Assembly (NCBI GenBank): GCA_913047365.1
Contig: CAJWUK010000006.1
Coordinates: 1 to 33,868, forward strand
DNA: 33,868 bases
From: an uncultured Alphaproteobacteria bacterium
GTDB lineage: Bacteria; Pseudomonadota; Alphaproteobacteria; MPNO01; UBA830
Direction of reading: 5' to 3'
The position numbers and the translations under genes were made by a program. Positions 5,801 to 30,663 of the stretch are shown piece after piece. Every line of letters begins with the position of its first letter. The stretch's first letter is position 1. The notes below the pieces were generated by a model. That model did no database searches. It was given only the letters and a program-made list of their open reading frames with translations, and had not been told where the DNA came from.

Positions 5801-7423
5801 CTATTCGTCATCCACGTTGCGGATGTCTGTATTTGGGACAACGCCGGTCCTGCGCTTCTGGTGAGATCGTTCGCCATTCGACTGCCAGTCGCCCTTTGCC
5901 GCGCGTATCGCAAGCTGATCCCATTCTTCGGACCAGTCGCCCAGTTCGTAACCGTGCCAGGGCGGTTCCGGGGTCAGTGACGGGAGGCCAAGCTTCTCCC
6001 AAAGCCCTTTGGCGTGTTCCATGTATTCCCGCTTCGGCAGGGCGACGGGGGCCATGTCGGCCTTTAAAGTCGCGTCGATGGCGAGTGTCGCATCTTCCGC
6101 CGCGCCGGTTTTCGGCCCGTGGCCAAGAGGCCGGTGAGGCAGCAATTCACAGTCCTGTGCCAGATTGGCCCGGTAGCTCATTGCCCAGAAAACAGCGTCC
6201 AGATTATCCGGGTCGATGTCCTCGTCGACTGCGATCAGGTATTTTCCGACCGGCGCCTGAAACGACATCGCGCCGTAAAGCGCCCGCCAGATTTCGGTGC
6301 GTGGTGTACCGCGCGTGAACTGGATGATGACGACTTTGCGGAGATTGGTCAGCGGCTCGTGCATCCCGACACGGACGACGCCCCGAATGCCCAGGTGACC
6401 GGTCAGGTGGGCCAGGAACAGCGGTTCGTAGGCAACACGTTTGATGACCGAAGATTCCGATGGCGTGACCTGGCTGATGATCGAGGTGAAGATCGCATTC
6501 TGCCGCTGCGTAATCGCGGTTACCTGAAAGATGAAATTGTATTCTTCCAGGTTGATATGTCCGTGGCTTTCGCCGAAAGGTCCCTCGGGTTCGAAATATT
6601 CGGGATCCAGCAATCCTTCTATCACGATTTCCGCCTCGGCCGGGACCAGCAGGTCTGACGTCCGGGCCTTGGCGACCCGGATCGGCGCGCCCGCTATGCC
6701 GCCTGCGACACCCATCTCGTCCACGTCCTTTGGTAGTTTCTGCGGACCGACATAAGCGACGGGCGGCGGGCAGCCGACCACCATGGCGATGGGCATAGCC
6801 TCGCCTCGGGCGCGGTATTTTTCCCAGTGTGCCGTGCCGCCCTGTCCCAGGTTCATGAACAGTTTTAGCCCGATGCGGTCCGGCGCCTTCAGCCCGCCCC
6901 GATAGGTGCCCATGTTCTGGGTGCCGGTGTCCGGATCGCTCGTGATGCAGGCGGTTGCGGTCAGATACGGCGCGGAATCGTATCCCGGGGTCGACACCGG
7001 AACGGGTAGGGCATCCAGGCCCGATCCTGATAGCAGGTCGCTGCCCTCGTAGACGATCTCCTGGCAGGCTGGGTCGCTGACGGTAACGGGTGCGATGGGA
7101 TTTGCGATGGAATGGGCCCAGCAGTCGCCGATTTTCCCCACGGGGACACCCATGCCGACGGAATAAATTGCTGCGTTGCCGGCCAGCGCGCCCACGGCGA
7201 CCGGGATGTCGAATTCGCGACCGTCGCCACCGCGCACTTTGGTAAACAGAAACGCCTTACGGTCCGGTTCCGCGATGCCGCCCCGGAACTGCCAGCGGAC
7301 CAGAGGGATCAATTCGGACTCCTTGTCGATCGGCGCGTCGATACGCGTCAGCAGCCCGCTGGTATCAAGCGCGGCCAGATGATCCTGAAAATCATTATAG
7401 CCGCGCGATGTCGCGTCAGACAT
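5801..7423 (-). CDS. UbiD-family prFMN-dependent decarboxylase
   Basis: 540 aa; NMGTYRGGLKAPDRIGLKL and PAEAEIVIEGLLDPEYFEPEGPFGESHGH, matching UbiD Arg and Glu-Glu active-site regions. Confidence 0.9.
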   Translation of the reverse strand: MSDATSRGYNDFQDHLAALDTSGLLTRIDAPIDKESELIPLVRWQFRGGIAEPDRKAFLFTKVRGGDGREFDIPVAVGALAGNAAIYSVGMGVPVGKIGDCWAHSIANPIAPVTVSDPACQEIVYEGSDLLSGSGLDALPVPVSTPGYDSAPYLTATACITSDPDTGTQNMGTYRGGLKAPDRIGLKLFMNLGQGGTAHWEKYRARGEAMPIAMVVGCPPPVAYVGPQKLPKDVDEMGVAGGIAGAPIRVAKARTSDLLVPAEAEIVIEGLLDPEYFEPEGPFGESHGHINLEEYNFIFQVTAITQRQNAIFTSIISQVTPSESSVIKRVAYEPLFLAHLTGHLGIRGVVRVGMHEPLTNLRKVVIIQFTRGTPRTEIWRALYGAMSFQAPVGKYLIAVDEDIDPDNLDAVFWAMSYRANLAQDCELLPHRPLGHGPKTGAAEDATLAIDATLKADMAPVALPKREYMEHAKGLWEKLGLPSLTPEPPWHGYELGDWSEEWDQLAIRAAKGDWQSNGERSHQKRRTGVVPNTDIRNVDDE

Positions 7424-7544
7424 TTACGTTCCTCCTGGCGGCCATGATGCGGTGCGGCCCGAAGCTGGGCAAGGCCCCTGGGGCGACAGGCGCGCGCTGG
7501 ATTGATACAGTTCCGTCATATTCAAGCCCTGGAGAACAAGAAAG

Positions 7545-8519
7545 ATGAAAGCGGCGGTGGTCACTGAAAACGGCATTGGTATTGACGATATTCCGGAACC
7601 GGAGCCGAAACCCAATGAAGTGAAGATCCGCGTTCGTGCCTGCGGCATGAACCGGGCCGACGCGATGGTCGCGAGCGGCATGGCTCATGGCCGTGCAGGT
7701 GGTCCCGGGACGGTGCCGGGGATCGAATATGTCGGCGAGGTAGTCGAAATCGGCTCAGAAGTGCCGAACGTCAAGCCCGGCGATCGGGTGATGTGCTCTG
7801 GTACATCGGGCTGGGGTGAATATGCCGTGGCGGACTGGGGGCGTGCGGTCCCCATGCCCGCCAACAACATGACCTGGGCGCAGGCATCGACCCTGCCGGT
7901 TGCACTACAAACCATGCATAACGCCCTGGTGACAGCGGGCCGGTTCAAATCCGGCGAAGCGGTCATGATCCAGGGGGCGAGCACCGGTGTCGGTCTGATG
8001 GGACTGCAGATCGCCAAGGCGATGGGGGCGAGGCTGGTGGTCGGATCGTCCACCAATCCCGAACGGCGCGACCGACTGACGGAATTCGGCGCTGATCTGG
8101 TCGTGGATTCACGGGACGAGGGCTGGGTCGGTCAGGTGCTTGAAGCAACCGGCGGCGACGGTGTAGATGTGATCGTCGATCAGGTTTCGGGTTATGCCGC
8201 CAACGCCAACCTGGCCGCGACCAAAATTCTCGGCCGCATCGTCAACGTCGGCCGTCTCGGAGGGTTCACCGGAAATTTCAATTTCGATCTTCACGCGATG
8301 CGCCGCATCGATTACATCGGTGTGACCTTCCGCACCCGGTCCGTCGAAGAAGTGCGCGATATCGTCCAGGCAATGAAGGACGATCTGTGGGGCAAGGTGG
8401 AGGCGGGCGATCTGGCGCTGCCGGTCGACCGTGAATTCGAAATCTATGACGTGGCTGAAGCCGTCGACTACATGAAGGCCAACCGCCACTTCGGCAAGAT
8501 CGTCCTCAACATGGCCTAA
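7545..8519 (+). CDS. MDR-family NAD(P)H:quinone oxidoreductase / zinc-type alcohol dehydrogenase-like protein
   Basis: 324 aa; PGIEYVGEVVEIGSEVPNVKPGDRVM, MIQGASTGVGLMGLQIAKAMGARLV nucleotide-binding region. Confidence 0.88.
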   Translation: MKAAVVTENGIGIDDIPEPEPKPNEVKIRVRACGMNRADAMVASGMAHGRAGGPGTVPGIEYVGEVVEIGSEVPNVKPGDRVMCSGTSGWGEYAVADWGRAVPMPANNMTWAQASTLPVALQTMHNALVTAGRFKSGEAVMIQGASTGVGLMGLQIAKAMGARLVVGSSTNPERRDRLTEFGADLVVDSRDEGWVGQVLEATGGDGVDVIVDQVSGYAANANLAATKILGRIVNVGRLGGFTGNFNFDLHAMRRIDYIGVTFRTRSVEEVRDIVQAMKDDLWGKVEAGDLALPVDREFEIYDVAEAVDYMKANRHFGKIVLNMA

Positions 8520-8531
8520 ATCATACGCCGC

Positions 8532-9407
8532 TTATGATGCTTCAGCCGGGTCGGCTTCCCGGCAGGTTGTCCGGCGTACGTCGCGTATCTGATTGCGGTC
8601 GTCGAACGGCCGTGCGCGGTGCATGGTGGCCAGATTGTCCCAAATCACGACATCGCCCACCTGCCACTGATGGGCATAGATGAACTGGGGTTGCGTGGCG
8701 AAGGCCATTAATTCGTCCAGCAGCGCGCGGCCGTCCTCTTCCGGCCATTCGACGATGTGAGAAGCATGAGACGCAACGTAGAGCGCCTTCCTGCCGCCGC
8801 GTTCGTGCACCAAAGGATGCCGGGCAGGGGGACGGGAGGCCAGTTCTTCCGCCGTTGCCGGTGGACCGCCGCCAGCGACACGGGAATACCAGTACGAATG
8901 CTCCGCGGTTAGCCTGCCGATCTTCCGTTTCATGTCTTCGGGCAAAGCCTTGTAGGCGGCGCGCATATTGGCGAACTCGGTTGGTGGACCGCCATCGGAC
9001 GGGAGGGCGTGCGCCGATAGCAGAGACCAGGTTGCCCGGTTCGAATGAAACGACATATCGGTATGCCAAAGCCGATTGGCGCGTTTAAAGGCCAGCCGCC
9101 GATCGTCATCGGCATAGATGCCGCCGGTCTCGTCCAAATTGCTCTGATCGATGATTTCGAAATGGGGGATGCGGTTCTTACCACTGCCGCTGGTCGTCAG
9201 CACCGGCTTGGATTCCACCGGCCCAAGCAAGCGACTGAACGAAATGTGCTCTTCGTCGGTCAGCGGTGTGTCGTGGCGAACAACGGCGACGGGATAGCGG
9301 TCCAGAATGGTTTTCAGTTCCTGAATGTCGTCCGGAGCAAGCTTTTGCCACAGATCTATGCCGTATACCTCCGCAGCAAAACTCTTTCCTATCTGCCCGG
9401 CGATCAC
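8532..9407 (-). CDS. TauD/TfdA-family Fe(II)/2OG dioxygenase
   Basis: 291 aa; facial triad LWHTDMSF (HxD) and distal TMHRARPFDDRNQIRDVRRTTC. Confidence 0.9.
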   Translation of the reverse strand: MIAGQIGKSFAAEVYGIDLWQKLAPDDIQELKTILDRYPVAVVRHDTPLTDEEHISFSRLLGPVESKPVLTTSGSGKNRIPHFEIIDQSNLDETGGIYADDDRRLAFKRANRLWHTDMSFHSNRATWSLLSAHALPSDGGPPTEFANMRAAYKALPEDMKRKIGRLTAEHSYWYSRVAGGGPPATAEELASRPPARHPLVHERGGRKALYVASHASHIVEWPEEDGRALLDELMAFATQPQFIYAHQWQVGDVVIWDNLATMHRARPFDDRNQIRDVRRTTCREADPAEAS

Positions 9408-9420
9408 GGTGAAGGGGGCG

Positions 9421-10308
9421 TCACGCCTGTGGCGGCAGTGTGCAGACCTGATCCCAGCGATACCGTTCTTTCAACGTACCGAAATGTTCGAACACGTCGA
9501 GGATGACATCGAATGCGGGTTCGGTGATTTCCACATGGGGCGTCCAGGTACCAAGCTCTTGATAGGATGCAATGCATTGGGCCAGCACGTCTTCGTTGAT
9601 ATCGGGGAAATAGGGTTTTTCAGCCTTCGCAATCTCCGACGCCGGGGTTTCGTTCATGTAAACCCGCGTCTTCGCATAAGCCCGCATGAACGCCTTCGCC
9701 ATATCGGATTCAAGCCACCCCCGGGTCGCCGCCAGACTTGAAAAACCGCAGGGGCCGATCAGCGGGCCCGATTGCGCGACAACGTGACCGATACCGTCGG
9801 CCTCTAACTGCTGCGGAAACGGCCCCTGTTGCTGCACGTATTGTCCCGTACCTTCCCGGAATGCCTTGTCGATATCTGCGGCCCCGCCCGGGTGAATTTG
9901 GTTGATCTTTTCGTAGTCGATCCCCGCTTTGTGGCAGGCGTATTTGAACATGGCCAGCGGTTGCCCGCCGGAAAAGGTGATGACGTCGGCTCCTTCAAGC
10001 TTATCCCATGTGAAATCGGGGTCGGCACCCCGTCCGGTGATGAAAAACCCGTCCATTTCGTTAATCTGGGCGAAATGGACCACGGACGGGGTTTCGCCTT
10101 TCGACAGCGGTCCGAAACCTTGGCTCAACGCCGACTGCACCACATGCGCCGATCCGTCTTCCAGCGCAGCAATCGCCGAAACGCCTGGCGGCGAAACCGA
10201 CCAGTCCGGATCGAGGCCTTCTTCCTGCAGGAAACCCGCGGAGAAGGTGGAAATCAGCGGTGAATAAAAAGCCGAAAACAGCGTGAACTGGATATTGATC
10301 TTTTCCAA
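9421..10308 (-). CDS. NMT1/THI5-like (ABC substrate-binding-fold) protein, no obvious signal peptide
   Basis: 295 aa; FLQEEGLDPDWSVSPPGVSAIAALEDGSAHVV...; TTG start preceded by GGAAAG. Confidence 0.75.
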   Translation of the reverse strand: MEKINIQFTLFSAFYSPLISTFSAGFLQEEGLDPDWSVSPPGVSAIAALEDGSAHVVQSALSQGFGPLSKGETPSVVHFAQINEMDGFFITGRGADPDFTWDKLEGADVITFSGGQPLAMFKYACHKAGIDYEKINQIHPGGAADIDKAFREGTGQYVQQQGPFPQQLEADGIGHVVAQSGPLIGPCGFSSLAATRGWLESDMAKAFMRAYAKTRVYMNETPASEIAKAEKPYFPDINEDVLAQCIASYQELGTWTPHVEITEPAFDVILDVFEHFGTLKERYRWDQVCTLPPQA

Positions 10309-10450
10309 GGCGTCTTTCCTTTGTCGAGCGCGAGTGGTCCTGACGCGAGACTGTCATACCCTCTATCAAGTCACAATGGCCCCCTGCGTTGCCCAGTAAA
10401 GTGTAGCCAAGTAATCTGCGGGCAAGATCACCACGGGCGGCCCGTACCGA

Positions 10451-11356
10451 ATGAATACTGTCGCACAGGCATTGCAGGTTTCTGTCTTACCCCACGCCGA
10501 GGGCATCGGCGCGGAGGTATCCGGCGTGGATCTTTCTCGGCCGCTGGAAAAAGATGTATTCGATGCGGTATCCGCCGCGTTTCGTGACCATCGCCTGCTC
10601 GTTTTTCGCGGTCAGCGGCTCTCGGTCGAGCAACAGATTGCGTTCAGCGAACGTTTCGGTGTGCTGGAGGATTTCCCGGATCCGAAGGATCAGGCGGACG
10701 GGCACAAGACTGTACTTCGCGTAACCAATATTGATCGGGCGACGGGCAACATAAAGCCGGTTGATGATCCGGGGCACAAATCATTCACCCTTGGCACGTC
10801 GTCGTGGCATATCGACAGTTCGTTCCGAACGCTGCCGTCGAAGGCGTCGATGCTGTATGCCCTCGAGATGCCGAACGAGGGTGGTGATACAATGTTCGCG
10901 GACACCACGCTGGCGTATGACACCTTGTCTGTCACCCGCCGCACGGAACTGGACCATATGGTGGTAATCCATGATTTCGAAGAAACTCGCCGTCGGCACA
11001 GCCTTCCGCCTCGCCCGCCGGAAGTTAAGGCGGCAACACCGCCCGCCCGTCATCCGTTGGTCACAGAGCAAGATAATGGGCGCCGGGCGCTGTTTATCGG
11101 ATCGCACGCAGCGGGAATTGAAGGCATGAGTTACGAGAATGCCCGGACGTTTATCGATGAGCTTGAAGCCATTAGCACGCAACCCCAATTCACTTACCGG
11201 CATCAGTGGAACTCAGGTGACATGATCATGTTCGACAATATTTGCGTGATGCATCAGGCAATGCCCTACGATCTGGTCGGTTCCCGGCGTCTGCTTCACC
11301 GCACGACGGTGGCAGGCGATGCGCCGCTGCCCGGTGTCGACGGGTTTGCGCCATGA
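10451..11356 (+). CDS. TauD/TfdA-family Fe(II)/2OG dioxygenase
   Basis: 301 aa; SWHIDSSFRTLPSKASML (HxD) and VMHQAMPYDLVGSRRLLHRTTV. Confidence 0.9.
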   Translation: MNTVAQALQVSVLPHAEGIGAEVSGVDLSRPLEKDVFDAVSAAFRDHRLLVFRGQRLSVEQQIAFSERFGVLEDFPDPKDQADGHKTVLRVTNIDRATGNIKPVDDPGHKSFTLGTSSWHIDSSFRTLPSKASMLYALEMPNEGGDTMFADTTLAYDTLSVTRRTELDHMVVIHDFEETRRRHSLPPRPPEVKAATPPARHPLVTEQDNGRRALFIGSHAAGIEGMSYENARTFIDELEAISTQPQFTYRHQWNSGDMIMFDNICVMHQAMPYDLVGSRRLLHRTTVAGDAPLPGVDGFAP

Positions 11357-23305: not shown

Positions 23306-24178
23306 ATGGAAGTCGTACCTCTGTCAGACGCAATCGGTGCGGAAATCCGGGGGCTGGACCTTACGCAGCCTCTTGATGAGGGCACTGTGGTGGCGGTTCG
23401 CCAAGCTTGGAACGACCATATCGTGCTGGTGTTCCGGGATCAGGATTTGGACCTGGAATCTCACAACCGGTTCGCCGAGTATTTCGGCGAAGTGGGCAAA
23501 CACATGCGGCCCAAGTCGATCCGCAACGAATCTGCGGAATTGGGACCGAATGTCATGCTGGTCTCGAACATCCGCGAAAACGGCAAGCCCATCGGGTCGC
23601 TGCCCGATGGCGAAATGATGTTCCATTCGGACACGCCCTACCGCGAGAATCCTGACAAATATACGACGCTTTATGCGATGGAAATTCCGTCAACGGGCGG
23701 CAACACGATCTTCGGTAACTGCTATCTTGCCGCCGAGACTCTTTCGGAAGACGTCAAACAAAAGCTGGCCGGGCGCAAGGCGGTGCATGTGTTCGAATAC
23801 GGTGCGGTGACGAAATCGGGCAAGTTTGACCGGGACAACGGCCGCTGGTGGGCGCAGCCGGTGTTCCGCAAGCATCCTGAAACGGGTAGGACGGCGCTTT
23901 ATGTCAGCGAACTGATGACCGAGGAAATCGAAGGCCTGCCCGAGGATGAGAGCCGTGAAATCCTGGAACTTCTGTTCGAACACCAGTCCCAACAGAAGTT
24001 TCTGCACGAACATGTCTGGCGGCCAGGCGACCTGGTGATCTGGGATAACCGGTGCAGCATTCACGCGCGGACCGATTTTCCTGAAACAGAACGACGCAAA
24101 CTACGGCGCCTGACAATCGTCGACGAAAATCCGGTTATGATGGGTGAACCACCAGGTTTGGAGGTCGCGGCCCAATGA
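23306..24178 (+). CDS. TauD/TfdA-family Fe(II)/2OG dioxygenase (array member 1)
   Basis: 290 aa; MMFHSDTPYRENPDK and SIHARTDFPETERRKLRRLTI. Confidence 0.92.
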   Translation: MEVVPLSDAIGAEIRGLDLTQPLDEGTVVAVRQAWNDHIVLVFRDQDLDLESHNRFAEYFGEVGKHMRPKSIRNESAELGPNVMLVSNIRENGKPIGSLPDGEMMFHSDTPYRENPDKYTTLYAMEIPSTGGNTIFGNCYLAAETLSEDVKQKLAGRKAVHVFEYGAVTKSGKFDRDNGRWWAQPVFRKHPETGRTALYVSELMTEEIEGLPEDESREILELLFEHQSQQKFLHEHVWRPGDLVIWDNRCSIHARTDFPETERRKLRRLTIVDENPVMMGEPPGLEVAAQ

Positions 24179-25035
24179 CGACGACACTGGAAAAGCTTGA
24201 AATCCTACCGCTTTCCCCGACGATCGGCGCCGAAATACGGGGTGTTGATCTGTCGCAACCGCTGGACGACCGGACGGTATCGGCCATCAAGGTTGCCTGG
24301 CATGACCATATCGTGCTGCTGTTCCGGGATCAGGATATAGATACCGAGCAACAGATCGCTTTTGCCGAACATTTCGGGGATGTCGGCACCCGGTCGCGTC
24401 CGGCGGAACGCCGGCCGGAGGGCGCCGATTACAACGCATCGATCATGCTGGTGTCCAACATCAAGAAAGACGGTGAGTACATCGGGTCGCTGCCGGATGG
24501 CGAGATGTGGTTTCACCACGACATGTGCTACGACCGCGCGCCCCACAAAGGAACCTTTCTGTATGCGATGGAACTTCCATCGACCGGCGGGAACACATTG
24601 TTTGCCAATATGTATGCCGCTTATGAGGTGCTGAGCGACGAAACCAAGGAACGCATCAAGGGACAGCGCGCGCTGCAGATTTACGATTTCGCGACACGCG
24701 AAGTGGTCGACATCTCCGGCGACATCGCTAAGTACAAGCACGAAATCCAGCCCGTTGCGATTACCCATCCCGTAACCGGGAAAAAGGCGCTTTACGTCAA
24801 TCCGCTAATTACCGCACGGATCGAAGATTGGCCGGAAGATGAGAGTAGGGCGCTGCTGGATGAGTTGTTCACGTTCGGTGAAAACCCTGACATCATTTAC
24901 GAGCATGAGTGGCGGGAAGGCGACCTGATAATGTGGGACAACTGGTGTTCGTGCCATGCGCGCACCGATTTTCCCGCGAGCGAACGCCGTATGCTGCGCC
25001 GCTGCACGGTAAAGGGCCAGCCGCTGTACGAATAA
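24175..25035 (+). CDS. TauD/TfdA-family Fe(II)/2OG dioxygenase (array member 2)
   Basis: 286 aa; MWFHHDMCYDRAPHKG and SCHARTDFPASERRMLRRCTV; ATGA overlap with member 1. Confidence 0.92.
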   Translation: MTTTLEKLEILPLSPTIGAEIRGVDLSQPLDDRTVSAIKVAWHDHIVLLFRDQDIDTEQQIAFAEHFGDVGTRSRPAERRPEGADYNASIMLVSNIKKDGEYIGSLPDGEMWFHHDMCYDRAPHKGTFLYAMELPSTGGNTLFANMYAAYEVLSDETKERIKGQRALQIYDFATREVVDISGDIAKYKHEIQPVAITHPVTGKKALYVNPLITARIEDWPEDESRALLDELFTFGENPDIIYEHEWREGDLIMWDNWCSCHARTDFPASERRMLRRCTVKGQPLYE

Positions 25036-25059
25036 AGGAGCGCCACAGGAGGAAACGAC

Positions 25060-25905
25060 ATGGCGATCACAATCAATAAGCTGTCGCCCCATATCGGTGC
25101 TGAAATCGCCGATATCGATCTAAACGAAGAACAATCCGCCGAGACTGTCGCGGAGATCGTTCAGGCCTGGCACGATAATCTGATATTGCTGTTTCGCGGA
25201 CAGCATCTGGATGCCGAACGCCAACTGGAAGTGACAAGCTGGTTCGGGACCCCCGGCAAGGTCGCGCGACCCAAGGAATTCCACCCCAAGGGCTATGAAA
25301 AACTGCCAGAAGGCATCATGCTGATTTCCAATATACGTGAGAACGGCGAACCCATCGGGGCGTTGCCGGACGGCGAAATGATGTTCCATCACGACATGAT
25401 GCACGCCGAGGTTCCGCACAAGGCGACGATGCTTAACGCGGTTGAAATTCCGTCTCACGGCGGCAATACGCTATTTGCCAGCGGTTATGCCGCCTACGAT
25501 ACGCTGGCCGACGAAATCCGTGAGCCTCTGGAAGGCCGACGGGCCTTCCATCACTACAATTACGGGTCGGTTCAAAAGGGCGACGGTAAGGGTACACCCG
25601 CGTTTTCCGAATCCAACCACCCGGTGTTCCGCACCCATGACGACACGGGTAAGAAGGCGATCTACGTCAACCGCCTGATGACCGAGGGCGTTCTGGAAAT
25701 GGATCAGGAAGAGGCTGATCAGCTGCTGTCAGCCGTGTTCGATCACGCCGAAAAGCCTGAATTTGTATACGAACACGCTTGGCAGGTGGGCGATCTGCTG
25801 TTGTGGGACAATCGCTGTTCCATGCATGCGCGCACCGATTTTCCGGAAACGGAACGCCGACTGCTGTTGCGGACGACGGTTACCGGCGACGCACGACCGT
25901 TCTGA
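25060..25905 (+). CDS. TauD/TfdA-family Fe(II)/2OG dioxygenase (array member 3)
   Basis: 281 aa; MMFHHDMMHAEVPHKA and SMHARTDFPETERRLLLRTTV. Confidence 0.92.
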   Translation: MAITINKLSPHIGAEIADIDLNEEQSAETVAEIVQAWHDNLILLFRGQHLDAERQLEVTSWFGTPGKVARPKEFHPKGYEKLPEGIMLISNIRENGEPIGALPDGEMMFHHDMMHAEVPHKATMLNAVEIPSHGGNTLFASGYAAYDTLADEIREPLEGRRAFHHYNYGSVQKGDGKGTPAFSESNHPVFRTHDDTGKKAIYVNRLMTEGVLEMDQEEADQLLSAVFDHAEKPEFVYEHAWQVGDLLLWDNRCSMHARTDFPETERRLLLRTTVTGDARPF

Positions 25906-25915
25906 GGCAGGGTAA

Positions 25916-26725
25916 ATGGCAAAACTTCTCAGCGACGATCAGATAAACGCGTGGCACAGCGACGGGTGTATCTTTCCCATTCGCGCGGTCTCGCCCGAAG
26001 AGGCGGAGGCCAATTACGACAGGTACCGCGCGCTGGAGAAGAAAATCGGAGAAGAACCGCAAAACCGGTTCAAGATAAAGGCGCATCTGCCGTTTCCGTG
26101 GATGTGGGACATCATTCGAAACGACAATATTCTCGATGCGGTCGAAGATATCATCGGTCCAGATATCCTGTGCTGGGGTTCCTCGTTTTTCACCAAGAAC
26201 GCGCATGACAAGCGATTCGTGTCGTGGCATCAGGATTCCACCTATTACGGCCTGTCGGAACGGGCGACACTCAGCGTCTGGTACGCGTTCAGCCCGTCCA
26301 ACGTAGAATCGGGCTGTATGCGGTTTATTCCCGGTACCCACAACAAGGGCCTCTATGACCATGACGAGACCCGGGCAGAAGACAATCTGCTGATGCGCGG
26401 CCAGACTATCCACGACGTCGATGAGATCCAGGCCGTCGATGTGGTGCTGGAACCGGGCGAATTTTCCATTCATCACGAAGCCGTGGTGCATGGTTCCAAT
26501 GCGAACAATTCGTCCCGGCCGCGGATCGGCATTTCTATTCACTACATCGCGCCGCACGTACATCAGGTGTTGCTTCAAAATTCGACGGCGACGCTGGTAC
26601 GGGGCAACGATCGGCACGGTCACTGGCAGGAAGACCCGGAACCGAAAGAGGATTTCGATCCCATCTGCTTGAAAGCGTTGGATACCACCTATAGTGAATA
26701 CTTGACCGGCGCGGGAAAATTCTGA
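25916..26725 (+). CDS. Phytanoyl-CoA dioxygenase (PhyH)-family protein (array member 4)
   Basis: 269 aa; SWHQDSTYYGL (HxD), GCMRFIPGTHNKG, distal HGSNANNSSRPRIGISIHY. Confidence 0.9.
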   Translation: MAKLLSDDQINAWHSDGCIFPIRAVSPEEAEANYDRYRALEKKIGEEPQNRFKIKAHLPFPWMWDIIRNDNILDAVEDIIGPDILCWGSSFFTKNAHDKRFVSWHQDSTYYGLSERATLSVWYAFSPSNVESGCMRFIPGTHNKGLYDHDETRAEDNLLMRGQTIHDVDEIQAVDVVLEPGEFSIHHEAVVHGSNANNSSRPRIGISIHYIAPHVHQVLLQNSTATLVRGNDRHGHWQEDPEPKEDFDPICLKALDTTYSEYLTGAGKF

Positions 26726-26752
26726 CGCCTTACCCAATCGGAGGAACCGCAA

Positions 26753-27568
26753 ATGCCAAAAGTTCTGACCGACGAACAACTTGAACAGTGGGAACGCACT
26801 GGGGCTGTTTGGCCCATCGATCTCTTGAGCGAGGATGAGGCCGCCGACTACAACTTGCGCTTTGAGGGGCTAGAGTCCTCCATGGAAGGGGAGGCGCAGG
26901 ACCGATTTCGCATGAAAGCCCATTTGCCGTTTCCCTGGCTTTGGGACCTGGTCACCCACGAACGGCTGGCCGATGCGATGGAAGACCTGCTAGGCCCCAA
27001 TCTGGTCTGCTGGGGGTCGTCCTTTTTCACGAAGAAGGCCCGTGATCCAAGATTTATTTCCTGGCATCAGGATTCCACCTATTACGGACTGGAACCGCCG
27101 GAATCGATCACCGCCTGGGTTGCATTCACGCATGCCAGCAGCGAAGCCGGCTGCATGAAAATCATTCCGGGATCGCACAAGGGTGCGGCTATCCTGCCGC
27201 ACGAAGAAACATACGATAAGAACAATCTGCTTTCGAGGGGCCAGACCATCCGCGATATCGATCCCTCAACGGCAGTCGAAATGCCGTTGAAGCCGGGGCA
27301 GATGTCGATACATCACAACAAGACCATCCATTCGTCCGAGCCCAATAATGCGGACTGGCCGCGTGTTGGCTTTGCCATTCATTTCGCGGATTCGAGCGTG
27401 CGCCAGGCGCAGTTCGAAAATCCCTTGGCAATTCATATTCGCGGGGAAGACACGGATGGCAACTGGGTCGAAGACCCGCGGCCGGAATACGAAATGTCAC
27501 CTGAAAGCATCGCCGCGGTGGACGAATACTGGAACCGGTATCGCAATGCGATGAAAGCTCAGACCTGA
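26753..27568 (+). CDS. Phytanoyl-CoA dioxygenase (PhyH)-family protein (array member 5)
   Basis: 271 aa; SWHQDSTYYGL, GCMKIIPGSHKGA, distal HSSEPNNADWPRVGFAIHF. Confidence 0.9.
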   Translation: MPKVLTDEQLEQWERTGAVWPIDLLSEDEAADYNLRFEGLESSMEGEAQDRFRMKAHLPFPWLWDLVTHERLADAMEDLLGPNLVCWGSSFFTKKARDPRFISWHQDSTYYGLEPPESITAWVAFTHASSEAGCMKIIPGSHKGAAILPHEETYDKNNLLSRGQTIRDIDPSTAVEMPLKPGQMSIHHNKTIHSSEPNNADWPRVGFAIHFADSSVRQAQFENPLAIHIRGEDTDGNWVEDPRPEYEMSPESIAAVDEYWNRYRNAMKAQT

Positions 27569-27613: not shown

Positions 27614-28249
27614 TCAAGCCTGAGGCAGGACAACCCCCACCATGGCGTCGCGGGTGACGATTTCGGCTAATCGATCCGCTGACCAGCCGTCGGTGCCTTC
27701 CGGTTGCTGCGGCAGAACCAGATAGCGCATATCCGCATTGGAATCGTGCACTCGGACGGTTTTGCTGTCCGGCAGTTCTGTTCCGAACTCTTTCAGGACC
27801 GAACGCGGTTCTACGACGGCTCGGGACCGGTAGCTCTTTGATTTGTACCAGTCCGGCGGCAGGCCAAGGATCGTCCGCGGATAACAGGAACAGAGCGTGC
27901 AGACGATCATGTTGTGCACGTCGTCGGTATTTTCGACGACGACGAGTTCCGCATCACCCATGGTGAGGCCCATTTCCTCCACCGCCTTGGTGCCATCTTC
28001 GAGCAGACGGGATTTGAAATCCGGATCGGTCCAGGCACGGGCGATAATCTTACCGCCATCGACCGGATCGCGGCTGTCCAAGAATTCCAGGTTTCGGCGC
28101 AGGTCGTCGGCGCTGACCACGCCCTTTTCGATCAGAAGTTCCTTCATTGCTTCGGCCATCAATTCGTAATAGCCGGTTTCGTTTACATCCGGCGTGGTGC
28201 CTGGGTGATCGTGATCGTGCGAATGCGTGCCGCGGTCATCGGTGGTCAT
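27614..28249 (-). CDS. Nitrile hydratase alpha / thiocyanate hydrolase gamma-like subunit, cobalt-type motif
   Basis: VCTLCSCYPRTILGLPPDWYKSKSYRSRAVVEPRSVLKEFG; internal start MTTDDRGTHSHDHDH. Confidence 0.9.
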   Translation of the reverse strand: MTTDDRGTHSHDHDHPGTTPDVNETGYYELMAEAMKELLIEKGVVSADDLRRNLEFLDSRDPVDGGKIIARAWTDPDFKSRLLEDGTKAVEEMGLTMGDAELVVVENTDDVHNMIVCTLCSCYPRTILGLPPDWYKSKSYRSRAVVEPRSVLKEFGTELPDSKTVRVHDSNADMRYLVLPQQPEGTDGWSADRLAEIVTRDAMVGVVLPQA

Positions 28250-28253
28250 GGGT

Positions 28254-28541
28254 CTAATCCTCGACTTTCTCGAGCCAGTGGTCATAAATTTCCAAATCCA
28301 GCGTATCGCTGGCCGGACCCTCGTAATTCTCCCAGAGATCGTTCTGCGCCAGCCGCACGCGATACAGTTCGCGCTTCGGCGTGCCGTCGAACCCGTAGGC
28401 AAGTTCTTCCGGGTTCTTGAAATCGCCGCAATAACGCTCGATCACGCCGGTTTTGCCACGCACATAAAAGGGCGTACGCCGGTGTCCGGGCGGGTGGGAA
28501 TCCTTGATGCGAACGCGTTCGCCGACACTGAACATGGTCAT
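28254..28541 (-). CDS. Nitrile hydratase beta C-terminal-half-like (SH3-like) subunit
   Basis: 95 aa; FSVGERVRIKDSHPPGHRRTPFYVRGKTGVIERYCGDFKNPEELAYG...YRVRLAQNDLWENYEG. Confidence 0.85.
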   Translation of the reverse strand: MTMFSVGERVRIKDSHPPGHRRTPFYVRGKTGVIERYCGDFKNPEELAYGFDGTPKRELYRVRLAQNDLWENYEGPASDTLDLEIYDHWLEKVED

Positions 28542-28545
28542 CGGT

Positions 28546-28848
28546 CTATCCTTCCAGCTTCGCCTTGATGGCGTCCATCCGGCCCATCACCTCGTTGCGG
28601 GTCCAGATGCCTTTTTCTTCCAGCAGGTTGATCATCGCCTCAGACCAGCGTTCGAAATAATCCTGCGAATATATGTCCGGCGGCAAATCTTCCAGCGCCC
28701 GGCGTAGTTCGTCGATACGCATGATGTCGTCGTCGCGCATGGCGGCGGCAAGCGACGTGATCATCTTGGCCCAGGGTTCGGCGTCATGGGCCGAACTCTC
28801 GATCGGCCCGGCGTCCATCCCGCCCATGTCATGCTGGCGCTGGTTCAT
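28546..28848 (-). CDS. Nitrile hydratase beta N-terminal-half-like protein (paralogue 1; structural subunit or activator)
   Basis: 100 aa; QHDMGGMDAGPI start; YFERWSEAMINLLEEKGIWTRNEVMGRM. Confidence 0.78.
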   Translation of the reverse strand: MNQRQHDMGGMDAGPIESSAHDAEPWAKMITSLAAAMRDDDIMRIDELRRALEDLPPDIYSQDYFERWSEAMINLLEEKGIWTRNEVMGRMDAIKAKLEG

Positions 28849-28894
28849 GCAATCTCCCTCTTTAAACGCATTCTGCGACGGTTACGGGCTGATT

Positions 28895-29209
28895 TCAACT
28901 ATCGGCCCGGGCGGATTTGAGTGCTTTGATCCGGTCCTGAACTTCCTTTTCGGTCACGACGCCTTTCTGCACGAGAATGTCGTGGATCGCCTGCATACCA
29001 AGCTCGAAATAGCCCAGCCCGTGATAACGGTCATAGCCCATGTCTTCCCGCGCTCGGCGCCCTTCATGCAGGTTTACCAGCCCGGCGCCGTTATCACCTA
29101 AGGCACCGCGCAGGGCCGTGGACAGCTTGGCCCAGTCCGCCGTGTCCTTTTGATCTAGCAAAATCGGCCCCCAGTTCTCTCCACCGATGTCGTTGACACT
29201 TTTCTTCAT
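28895..29209 (-). CDS. Nitrile hydratase beta N-terminal-half-like protein (paralogue 2)
   Basis: 104 aa; VNDIGGENWGPI start; LVNLHEGRRAREDMGYDRYHGLGYFELGMQAIHDILVQKGVVTEKEVQDRI. Confidence 0.76.
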   Translation of the reverse strand: MKKSVNDIGGENWGPILLDQKDTADWAKLSTALRGALGDNGAGLVNLHEGRRAREDMGYDRYHGLGYFELGMQAIHDILVQKGVVTEKEVQDRIKALKSARADS

Positions 29210-29256
29210 GCGACTCTCCCGGTATCAGATAGGGGATAGTACAGAAAGGTTTCCGC

Positions 29257-30663
29257 ATGCGCGACCAGTCGCTGCGCAATCACGTCGCCAATCTTGAACA
29301 GCAGGGCGAATTAATCCGCATTACCAAGGAAGTTGACCCGCATCAGAACGTCTCCGCGATTGGCTGGAAAGCCTATGATCGCCTTGGAAAATCGACGCTG
29401 TTTACCAATCTGAAGGGCTTTCCCGGATGGGAGTTGGTGAACCAGGTCATCACCGACCGCCGCAAATGGTCCATCGCCTTGGGAATTGATGACGAAGAAG
29501 ATTTTATTCCCACGCTGGTCGACCGGGTTAAGCGCCAGTTGAAACCGGTGGACGTTTCTGCGGCCGATGCCCCTGTCAAAGAAGTCATTCTGAAAGGCAA
29601 GGACGCCGATCTGACCAAGGTGCCGGCGCTGTGGCATGCGGAGAATGACCCGGCACCCTATATTGCGTCTGGCATGGCCATAATCAAGGATCCGGAGACC
29701 GGCGTCCGTAACATGTCGATCCACCGCCAGCAGATCATGGGGCCGGATCAGACGGGGTTTCTGATCTGTCCCCGACACGCGCTGCGCGTCTATCAAAAGT
29801 ACCAGAAACGGAACGAGCCGATGCCGGTCGCTATGGTCGTGGGTGCGCACCCGGCAATATATTACGCGTCGGGTTTTACGTCGTCCTATGGCTTGGATGA
29901 ACTGGAAATCGCGGGCTCTCTGCTGGACGATCCCATCCGCCTGGTGAAATGCGAGACCATCGATATTGAAGTCCCGGCGGAAGCCGAGATGGTGATCGAA
30001 GGCGAGGTTCTGCCGGAAGGCATGGTCGAGGAAGGCCCGTTCGGAGAGGCGAGCGGGACCTATGCGATGGAAGGATCGACCGAAATCTTCAAGGTGAAGG
30101 CGATCACCCACCGCAAGGATCCGCTGTTCTATGCCATGCAGTGCGGCGCGCCGATGACCGATACCCAATCGATCACCGGTACCTGCATCGAAACGGTCAT
30201 CACCGATCATCTGCGCAACGTCGAAGGCGGGCTGGACTTGCTTGATGTACGGTGCCTCGGGATTGCAGGGCTTATGGCGATTGTCTTGAAACTGCGGCCC
30301 CGGGTCGAAGGTCAGGCAAAGACCGCGCTGATGGCTGCGTTGTCCAGCCCCTATCTGCACCCAAAACTGGCCATCGCGGTGGACGATGATATCGACGCCT
30401 CCGACATGCGCCAGGTATTCTGGTCCATGACCACCCGGGTCCACGGCTCGCGGGATGTCGTGAGGGTACCCAATACCCGCATCTGGTCGCTGGACAATGT
30501 GTCGGACATCGTGCCGGGGATGAGCGCAATGTACCGGATCGGGACCAAGCTGATCATTGATGCCACCAAACCGGCGATCACGCAGACCGCGGAACGGGCG
30601 CGTTTTACCCCCGCGATGCCGCATAATTTTAATGGCGTAAATCTCGAGGATTATCTGCCCTAA
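29257..30663 (+). CDS. UbiD-family prFMN-dependent decarboxylase
   Basis: 468 aa; NMSIHRQQIMGPDQTGFLI and EGPFGEASGTY active-site regions; SD-like AAAGG. Confidence 0.9.
   Translation: MRDQSLRNHVANLEQQGELIRITKEVDPHQNVSAIGWKAYDRLGKSTLFTNLKGFPGWELVNQVITDRRKWSIALGIDDEEDFIPTLVDRVKRQLKPVDVSAADAPVKEVILKGKDADLTKVPALWHAENDPAPYIASGMAIIKDPETGVRNMSIHRQQIMGPDQTGFLICPRHALRVYQKYQKRNEPMPVAMVVGAHPAIYYASGFTSSYGLDELEIAGSLLDDPIRLVKCETIDIEVPAEAEMVIEGEVLPEGMVEEGPFGEASGTYAMEGSTEIFKVKAITHRKDPLFYAMQCGAPMTDTQSITGTCIETVITDHLRNVEGGLDLLDVRCLGIAGLMAIVLKLRPRVEGQAKTALMAALSSPYLHPKLAIAVDDDIDASDMRQVFWSMTTRVHGSRDVVRVPNTRIWSLDNVSDIVPGMSAMYRIGTKLIIDATKPAITQTAERARFTPAMPHNFNGVNLEDYLP

Follow-up and report, generated by a model that had tools for sequence, protein, structure and literature searches.

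In nitrile hydratases (NHases), the alpha subunit holds Co3+ in an oxidised claw, and the N- and C-terminal halves of beta (beta-N and beta-C) contribute the pair of arginines by which the claw oxygens are held. How cobalt reaches this buried claw is debated, the two proposals being activator-driven subunit swapping and direct insertion; an oddity here are the three-subunit enzymes, whose own beta-N is said to load the metal. The closest CHARACTERISED system to the one described here is the three-subunit cobalt NHase of Streptomyces canus CGMCC 13662. Its genes run anhD (beta-N), anhE (beta-C), anhA (alpha), and no activator gene was found in the genome (PMC7329996). There, AnhD forms an AnhD2A complex and serves as a metal (cobalt) and subunit-swapping chaperone, holo-AnhDA raises the activity of the apo-enzyme, and the enzyme itself is a D2E2A2 particle with two beta-N sites (PMC7329996). 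The toyocamycin nitrile hydratase ToyJKL of S. rimosus is also a three-subunit NHase (PMC7329996), and the thiocyanate hydrolase (SCNase) ScnABC of Thiobacillus thioparus is encoded by four genes, activator included (PMC7193024). Finally, a 2020 review distinguishes six NHase gene organisations, among them that of SCNase with its separate activator, and none with two beta-N genes (PMC7193024).

Here we analyse an operon found in a 33,868-nucleotide stretch of DNA, referred to as the window throughout, whose source is described as a marine alphaproteobacterium. What is new with respect to the known three-subunit cobalt NHases is N2, a second, ancient beta-N lineage that has become fixed in the operon.

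A four-gene operon with a split beta subunit

All four genes lie on the minus strand. The first of them, N2 (29209-28895), encodes a second NHase beta-N-like protein of 104 residues. It is followed after 46 nt by N1 (28848-28546, 100 residues), the canonical, AnhD-like beta-N subunit of a split NHase, then by beta-C (28541-28254, 95 residues), the SH3-like C-terminal half of beta, which is AnhE-like, and by alpha (28249-27614, 211 residues), the cobalt-type catalytic subunit with the claw CTLCSC; the N1/beta-C and beta-C/alpha gaps are 4 nt each. Shine-Dalgarno-like motifs precede N2 (GGGAG) and N1 (AGGGAG). The start of alpha is the ATG at 28249, the 262-residue version in the raw ORF list beginning at a TTG further upstream, inside beta-C. 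In a Pfam search, all four proteins exceeded the gathering cut-offs of 21.5-27.7 bits: alpha matched PF02979 with 269.5 bits (E = 1.4e-80), beta-C matched PF02211 with 72.1 bits, and N1 and N2 matched PF21006 (NHase_beta_N) with 61.0 bits (E = 1.4e-16) and 44.8 bits (E = 1.6e-11), respectively. Since N1 and N2 match the N-terminal beta profile alone (from position 2 or 3 to 98 of 115) and beta-C the C-terminal one alone (11-98 of 98), beta is truly split. The initial annotation had proposed just this arrangement of four ORFs, with a split beta and two beta-N paralogues, and the profile matches confirm that it is real and that both beta-N ORFs are genuine NHase homologues.

A scan of genome contigs for relatives of alpha gave 80 loci from Alphaproteobacteria, Betaproteobacteria and Streptomyces, almost all of which have an ORF each for beta-N, beta-C and alpha. 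The order is mostly N-C-alpha, with the N1-C-alpha layout seen also in three Streptomyces loci and many others, and is C-alpha-N in Rhizobiales-type loci. This recurrence shows that the split is an old organisation and rules out a frameshift or an assembly artefact; consequently, the arrangement survives the objection foreseen at the outset, namely that close homologues might have a fused beta and a frameshift might explain the split. Conventional fused-beta NHases with an activator do also occur in this taxonomic order; they form a set of their own, and some genomes have both kinds. A single beta-N is found at loci in genomes of family f2, in Streptomyces and in Betaproteobacteria, which suggests that one beta-N can be enough.

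Other configurations were also seen. At L135 (G051:C192) and L148 (G051:C38), one ORF fuses beta-N and alpha (open frames of 362 and 413 residues), and at L131 (G010:C14) and L144 (G016:C311) beta-N adjoins alpha without beta-C. The latter two genomes each have a single beta-C, on a different contig and next to another alpha. Could L131 and L144 be candidates for a beta-C-less NHase?

As for the type of enzyme, alpha passes the NHase-alpha equivalog TIGR01323 (258.4 bits, cut-off 249.85) and fails the SCNase-gamma equivalog (218.4 bits, cut-off 291.45), and the solved chains closest to it are those of cobalt-type NHases. The cobalt-type assignment of alpha first made from its CTLCSC motif is thus upheld by both TIGR01323 and PF02979, whereas the accompanying label "thiocyanate hydrolase-like" is not supported as a family assignment. 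Alpha and beta-C are each the sole protein of their kind found in the genome of origin. Beta-C aligns with the C-terminal half of NHase beta and with SCNase alpha, its Arg22 falling on betaArg149 (P. putida numbering), and the equivalent of betaArg52 is invariant in N1 and in N2 (R51), so that both claw-binding arginines of beta have equivalents in this operon. In the tree, N1 groups with the lone beta-N of those split NHases that have no N2; its AlphaFold2 single-chain model (pLDDT 88) has the NHase beta-N fold, with PDB matches of the same family as those of N2, and its score against TIGR03889 (nitrile hydratase accessory protein), 17.1 bits, is below the cut-off of 46. By analogy with AnhDEA, N1, beta-C and alpha should suffice as a catalyst.

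N2 as a separate beta-N lineage

Six positions are invariant across 46 split beta-N proteins and all of them are kept in N2, namely D7, G9, G10, R51, E55 and Y67, with R51 and Y67 aligning to betaArg52 and betaTyr68 of P. putida NHase. All seven classical activators compared lack the D-x-GG tail and the arginine at position 52, both of which N2 keeps. The single-chain AlphaFold2 model of N2 (pLDDT 91) is confident and has SCNase and NHase beta-N as its best folds (TMq 0.66-0.83). In the PDB, nothing but beta chains of SCNase and NHase matched it meaningfully, with a Foldseek probability of 1.00 and with E-values no better than 0.003-0.16 owing to the short chain. Against TIGR03889, N2 gave no match at E<=1.

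Phylogenetically, the tree separates the activators (a clade of their own, support 99/95), the fused beta-N, N1, and a group of N2 with stand-alone beta-N (96/92). The topology tests rest on approximately 106 alignment columns and give moderate rather than strong results. Within this limit, a grouping of N2 with the operon's N1 is rejected (p-AU 0.023), and with it a recent tandem duplication of N1 or a tandem origin common to both, which makes the two beta-N old separate lineages and suggests that they have distinct roles. Placement of N2 with the activators is likewise rejected (p-AU 0.028) and, together with the retained D-x-GG and betaArg52 and the lack of a match to TIGR03889, this disqualifies N2 as a classical P14K/NhlE activator. 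A monophyletic N2 could not be rejected (p-AU 0.27), the best tree requiring two changes. The initial annotation had left a choice between a true four-subunit enzyme and a three-subunit enzyme whose activator is the second beta-N paralogue. The three-subunit N1-C-alpha part of the latter is retained in our main reading, the classical activator is not, and the choice itself overlooked a further option, namely an AnhDEA-type enzyme that has no separate activator (PMC7329996).

At positions 71-72, N1 has RW and N2 has LG. We considered the loss of Trp72 as a sign that N2 is non-structural and dropped the idea, as the beta subunit of the Comamonas Fe-NHase and betaproteobacterial split beta-N also lack this residue. 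A second beta-N was also seen approximately 1.3 kb upstream of the N-C-alpha operon at L133 (G055:C57); there the two beta-N are sisters (99/97) and represent an independent recent duplication, unlike N2 and N1.

A search covering 27 genomes of the same order found N2-N1-C-alpha in seven: that of origin (G000), G001, G003, G004 and G005 in family f1, G017 in f3 and G009 in f4, with a contig end cutting N2 in G004. N2 thus stands directly upstream of N1-C-alpha in three families of one alphaproteobacterial order. That it is widespread in Alphaproteobacteria is rejected, as an even sample of 385 genomes of this class, searched at a strict threshold, had no match of N2 strength outside the order. 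The pN/pS ratios of N2 (0.12-0.31) and N1 (0.13-0.24) indicate similar purifying selection. In G017 and G009, a MetE-like (Meth_synt_2) gene lies just upstream of N2; in the Defluviicoccus-type genomes G008, G011 and G013 it lies just upstream of N1, giving MetE-like-N1-C-alpha with the operon N2 absent; and in the genome of origin it is elsewhere, on contig C110. By parsimony, this suggests that MetE-N2-N1-C-alpha is ancestral, that N2 was lost from the Defluviicoccus operon and that, in f1, the MetE-like gene came to lie elsewhere. Directly 5' of the NHase operon in f3 and f4, the MetE-like gene was seen at L017:2740-3792, L012:8219-9370 and L121 (G009:C73:559-1596).

Genomic surroundings and possible partner enzymes

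On the plus strand, diverging from N2 across a common intergenic region of 47 bp (29210-29256), lies a UbiD-family decarboxylase gene (29257-30663; PF01977, E = 1.5e-64), which is a conserved neighbour. Namely, UbiD homologues that are 75-89% identical are found near the operon at L007, L009, L011, L012, L013, L015 and L017, and the spacing between the start codons of N2 and UbiD is 47-48 bp in the window, L007 and L009, and 149 bp in L011. In the window, the UbiD-family gene is followed by a Rieske oxygenase. The conserved divergent UbiD, along with the Rieske oxygenase, suggests shared regulation and the catabolism of a cyano- or carboxy-substituted unsaturated or aromatic compound; the UbiD-family enzyme is probably a pathway partner and not a subunit. 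Going by this neighbour, the hydrolysed product might perhaps be a (hetero)aromatic or unsaturated acid, with decarboxylation as a later step. Elsewhere in the window, 5801-11356 and 23306-27568 form a dense catabolic region with several TauD-/PhyH-type dioxygenase genes, and the UbiD family has another member there, at 5801-7423. At L035 and L030, a molybdenum hydroxylase large subunit (Pfam-tested in L035) comes right after the alpha of the split NHase, with an isochorismatase-family gene further downstream, a context that suggests N-heterocycle catabolism.

The stand-alone kin of N2 have surroundings of their own. In 11 genomes of the order, that of origin included, a stand-alone beta-N immediately precedes an isochorismatase-family gene (L137, on G000:C219, L123, L124, L126, L127, L130, L138, L140, L142, L143 and L145), and neither NHase alpha nor beta-C was found within these 11 loci. 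All but one of the 11 genomes also carry an NHase alpha, the exception being G006, which is 67% complete. The f2 genomes encode homologues of this hydrolase at a distance of approximately 4-5 kb from their split NHase operon. Nicotinamidase and other amidohydrolases belong to the isochorismatase family, and the hydrolase next to the stand-alone beta-N is therefore a candidate amidase for the product of the NHase. At L007, an amidase-signature enzyme (PF01425) is encoded approximately 4 kb beyond alpha. In the genome of origin, genes that by eye resemble CofD and CofE of coenzyme F420 biosynthesis adjoin the stand-alone pair (L003:1-1629, G000:C219).

Proposed working of the enzyme and comparison with known systems

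Our main reading, to which we assign a probability of roughly 0.5, is that the operon encodes a three-subunit, AnhDEA-type cobalt NHase together with N2, a second alpha-binding beta-N that acts mainly in the maturation of alpha. The three-subunit core is argued for by the anhD-anhE-anhA order of N1-C-alpha and by an alpha that passes the NHase-alpha equivalog. A role of N2 as a partner of alpha is argued for by its fixed upstream position in seven genomes, the six beta-N positions that it keeps, its fold and its N1-like constraint; with about even odds, N2 binds alpha as N1 does and is specialised as a loading or swapping partner. From these comparisons we infer an active enzyme, the binding of N2 to alpha and separate tasks for N1 and N2. 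In such a scheme, N2, alone or with N1, would hold apo-alpha in an AnhD2A-like complex, in which Co3+ would be inserted and the claw cysteines oxidised; the loaded alpha would then swap into the N1-C-alpha enzyme, which would hydrate the nitrile to the amide. That said, three observations speak against a maturation role. N2 keeps the mature-site betaArg52, which is lost in classical activators and needless for a pure chaperone; G008, G011 and G013 keep the operon without its N2; and the closest kin of N2 adjoin an isochorismatase-family gene and not alpha.

The same retained residues would be expected of a structural beta-N, and N1 and N2 could both stay in the mature oligomer of a four-subunit enzyme, each filling one beta-N position of an alpha2(betaN)2(betaC)2 particle or capping different faces. 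N2 keeps D-x-GG, betaArg52 and betaTyr68, it is strictly co-operonic in three families, and the S. canus particle does offer two beta-N sites (PMC7329996). We nevertheless judge this, the main rival, to be the less likely reading: the genome of origin, with one beta-C and one alpha gene, has no second set for N2 to serve, relatives with a single beta-N exist, and the N1 clade is complete alone. It is rather improbable that N1 and N2 can replace each other on one alpha-betaC core, so as to yield two isozymes that differ in substrate or stability. The difference at positions 71-72 amid shared contact residues, as well as the purifying selection on both proteins, would fit such an exchange, but position 72 varies in characterised enzymes (the Fe-type Comamonas beta has YFERV) and co-expression from a single operon speaks against conditional exchange.

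The stand-alone relatives raise the question of whether N2 serves another partner altogether, such as their isochorismatase-family amidohydrolase, and is merely carried by the operon. The common clade and the 11 genomes with the stand-alone pair point in this direction; however, the operon N2 adjoins N1-C-alpha and no isochorismatase, it keeps the alpha-contact signatures, and an NHase alpha is present in 10 of those 11 genomes as well, so that we give this little credence. Least credible of all is a thiocyanate hydrolase with beta-N, beta-C and alpha as ScnB, ScnA and ScnC and N2 in the place of P15K. SCNase does have a likewise split beta and a separate activator gene (PMC7193024), and the split beta-N profile matches SCNase beta best among solved structures (67.5 bits), but alpha falls on the NHase side of both equivalog cut-offs, and N1, whose domain begins at ScnB residue 45, is missing the N-terminal extension of ScnB.

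Somewhat below even odds, we would place the broader proposition that the operon encodes either a four-subunit NHase or one in which the beta-N roles are divided, N1 being catalytic and N2 a chaperone, and that, the stand-alone kin acting likewise, beta-N is a general alpha-handling module. If true, beta-N would be more than half a beta subunit, and the N2 lineage would include stand-alone proteins working with an isochorismatase-family amidohydrolase. With two ancient beta-N, one alpha and one beta-C in one operon, the two roles become separable genetically, and the operon is a natural test case for the assembly of the little-studied three-piece cobalt NHases.

With the classical two-subunit cobalt NHases and their P14K/NhlE/NhhG activators, the operon shares the claw motif, the alpha fold and a beta-N-like helper; in those enzymes, however, beta is fused, and the activators form a lineage separate from N2 that lacks D-x-GG and betaArg52. 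SCNase is similar in its split beta-like subunits and in the match of ScnB to the beta-N profile and fold, and differs in an alpha whose equivalog ours fails, in gene order and in the N-terminal extension of ScnB. ToyJKL, a biosynthetic enzyme with a split beta, whose alpha alone was reported to be active, is comparable by description as a three-subunit enzyme, and we know of no extra beta-N in that system such as the one that sets this operon apart. The closest likeness is to AnhDEA: N1, beta-C and alpha are separate genes in the same order, and the operon has no P14K-type activator. Unlike in AnhDEA, whose type comprises exactly three genes, here and in six other genomes the set is preceded by the phylogenetically distinct N2, where S. 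canus AnhD unites both roles in one protein.
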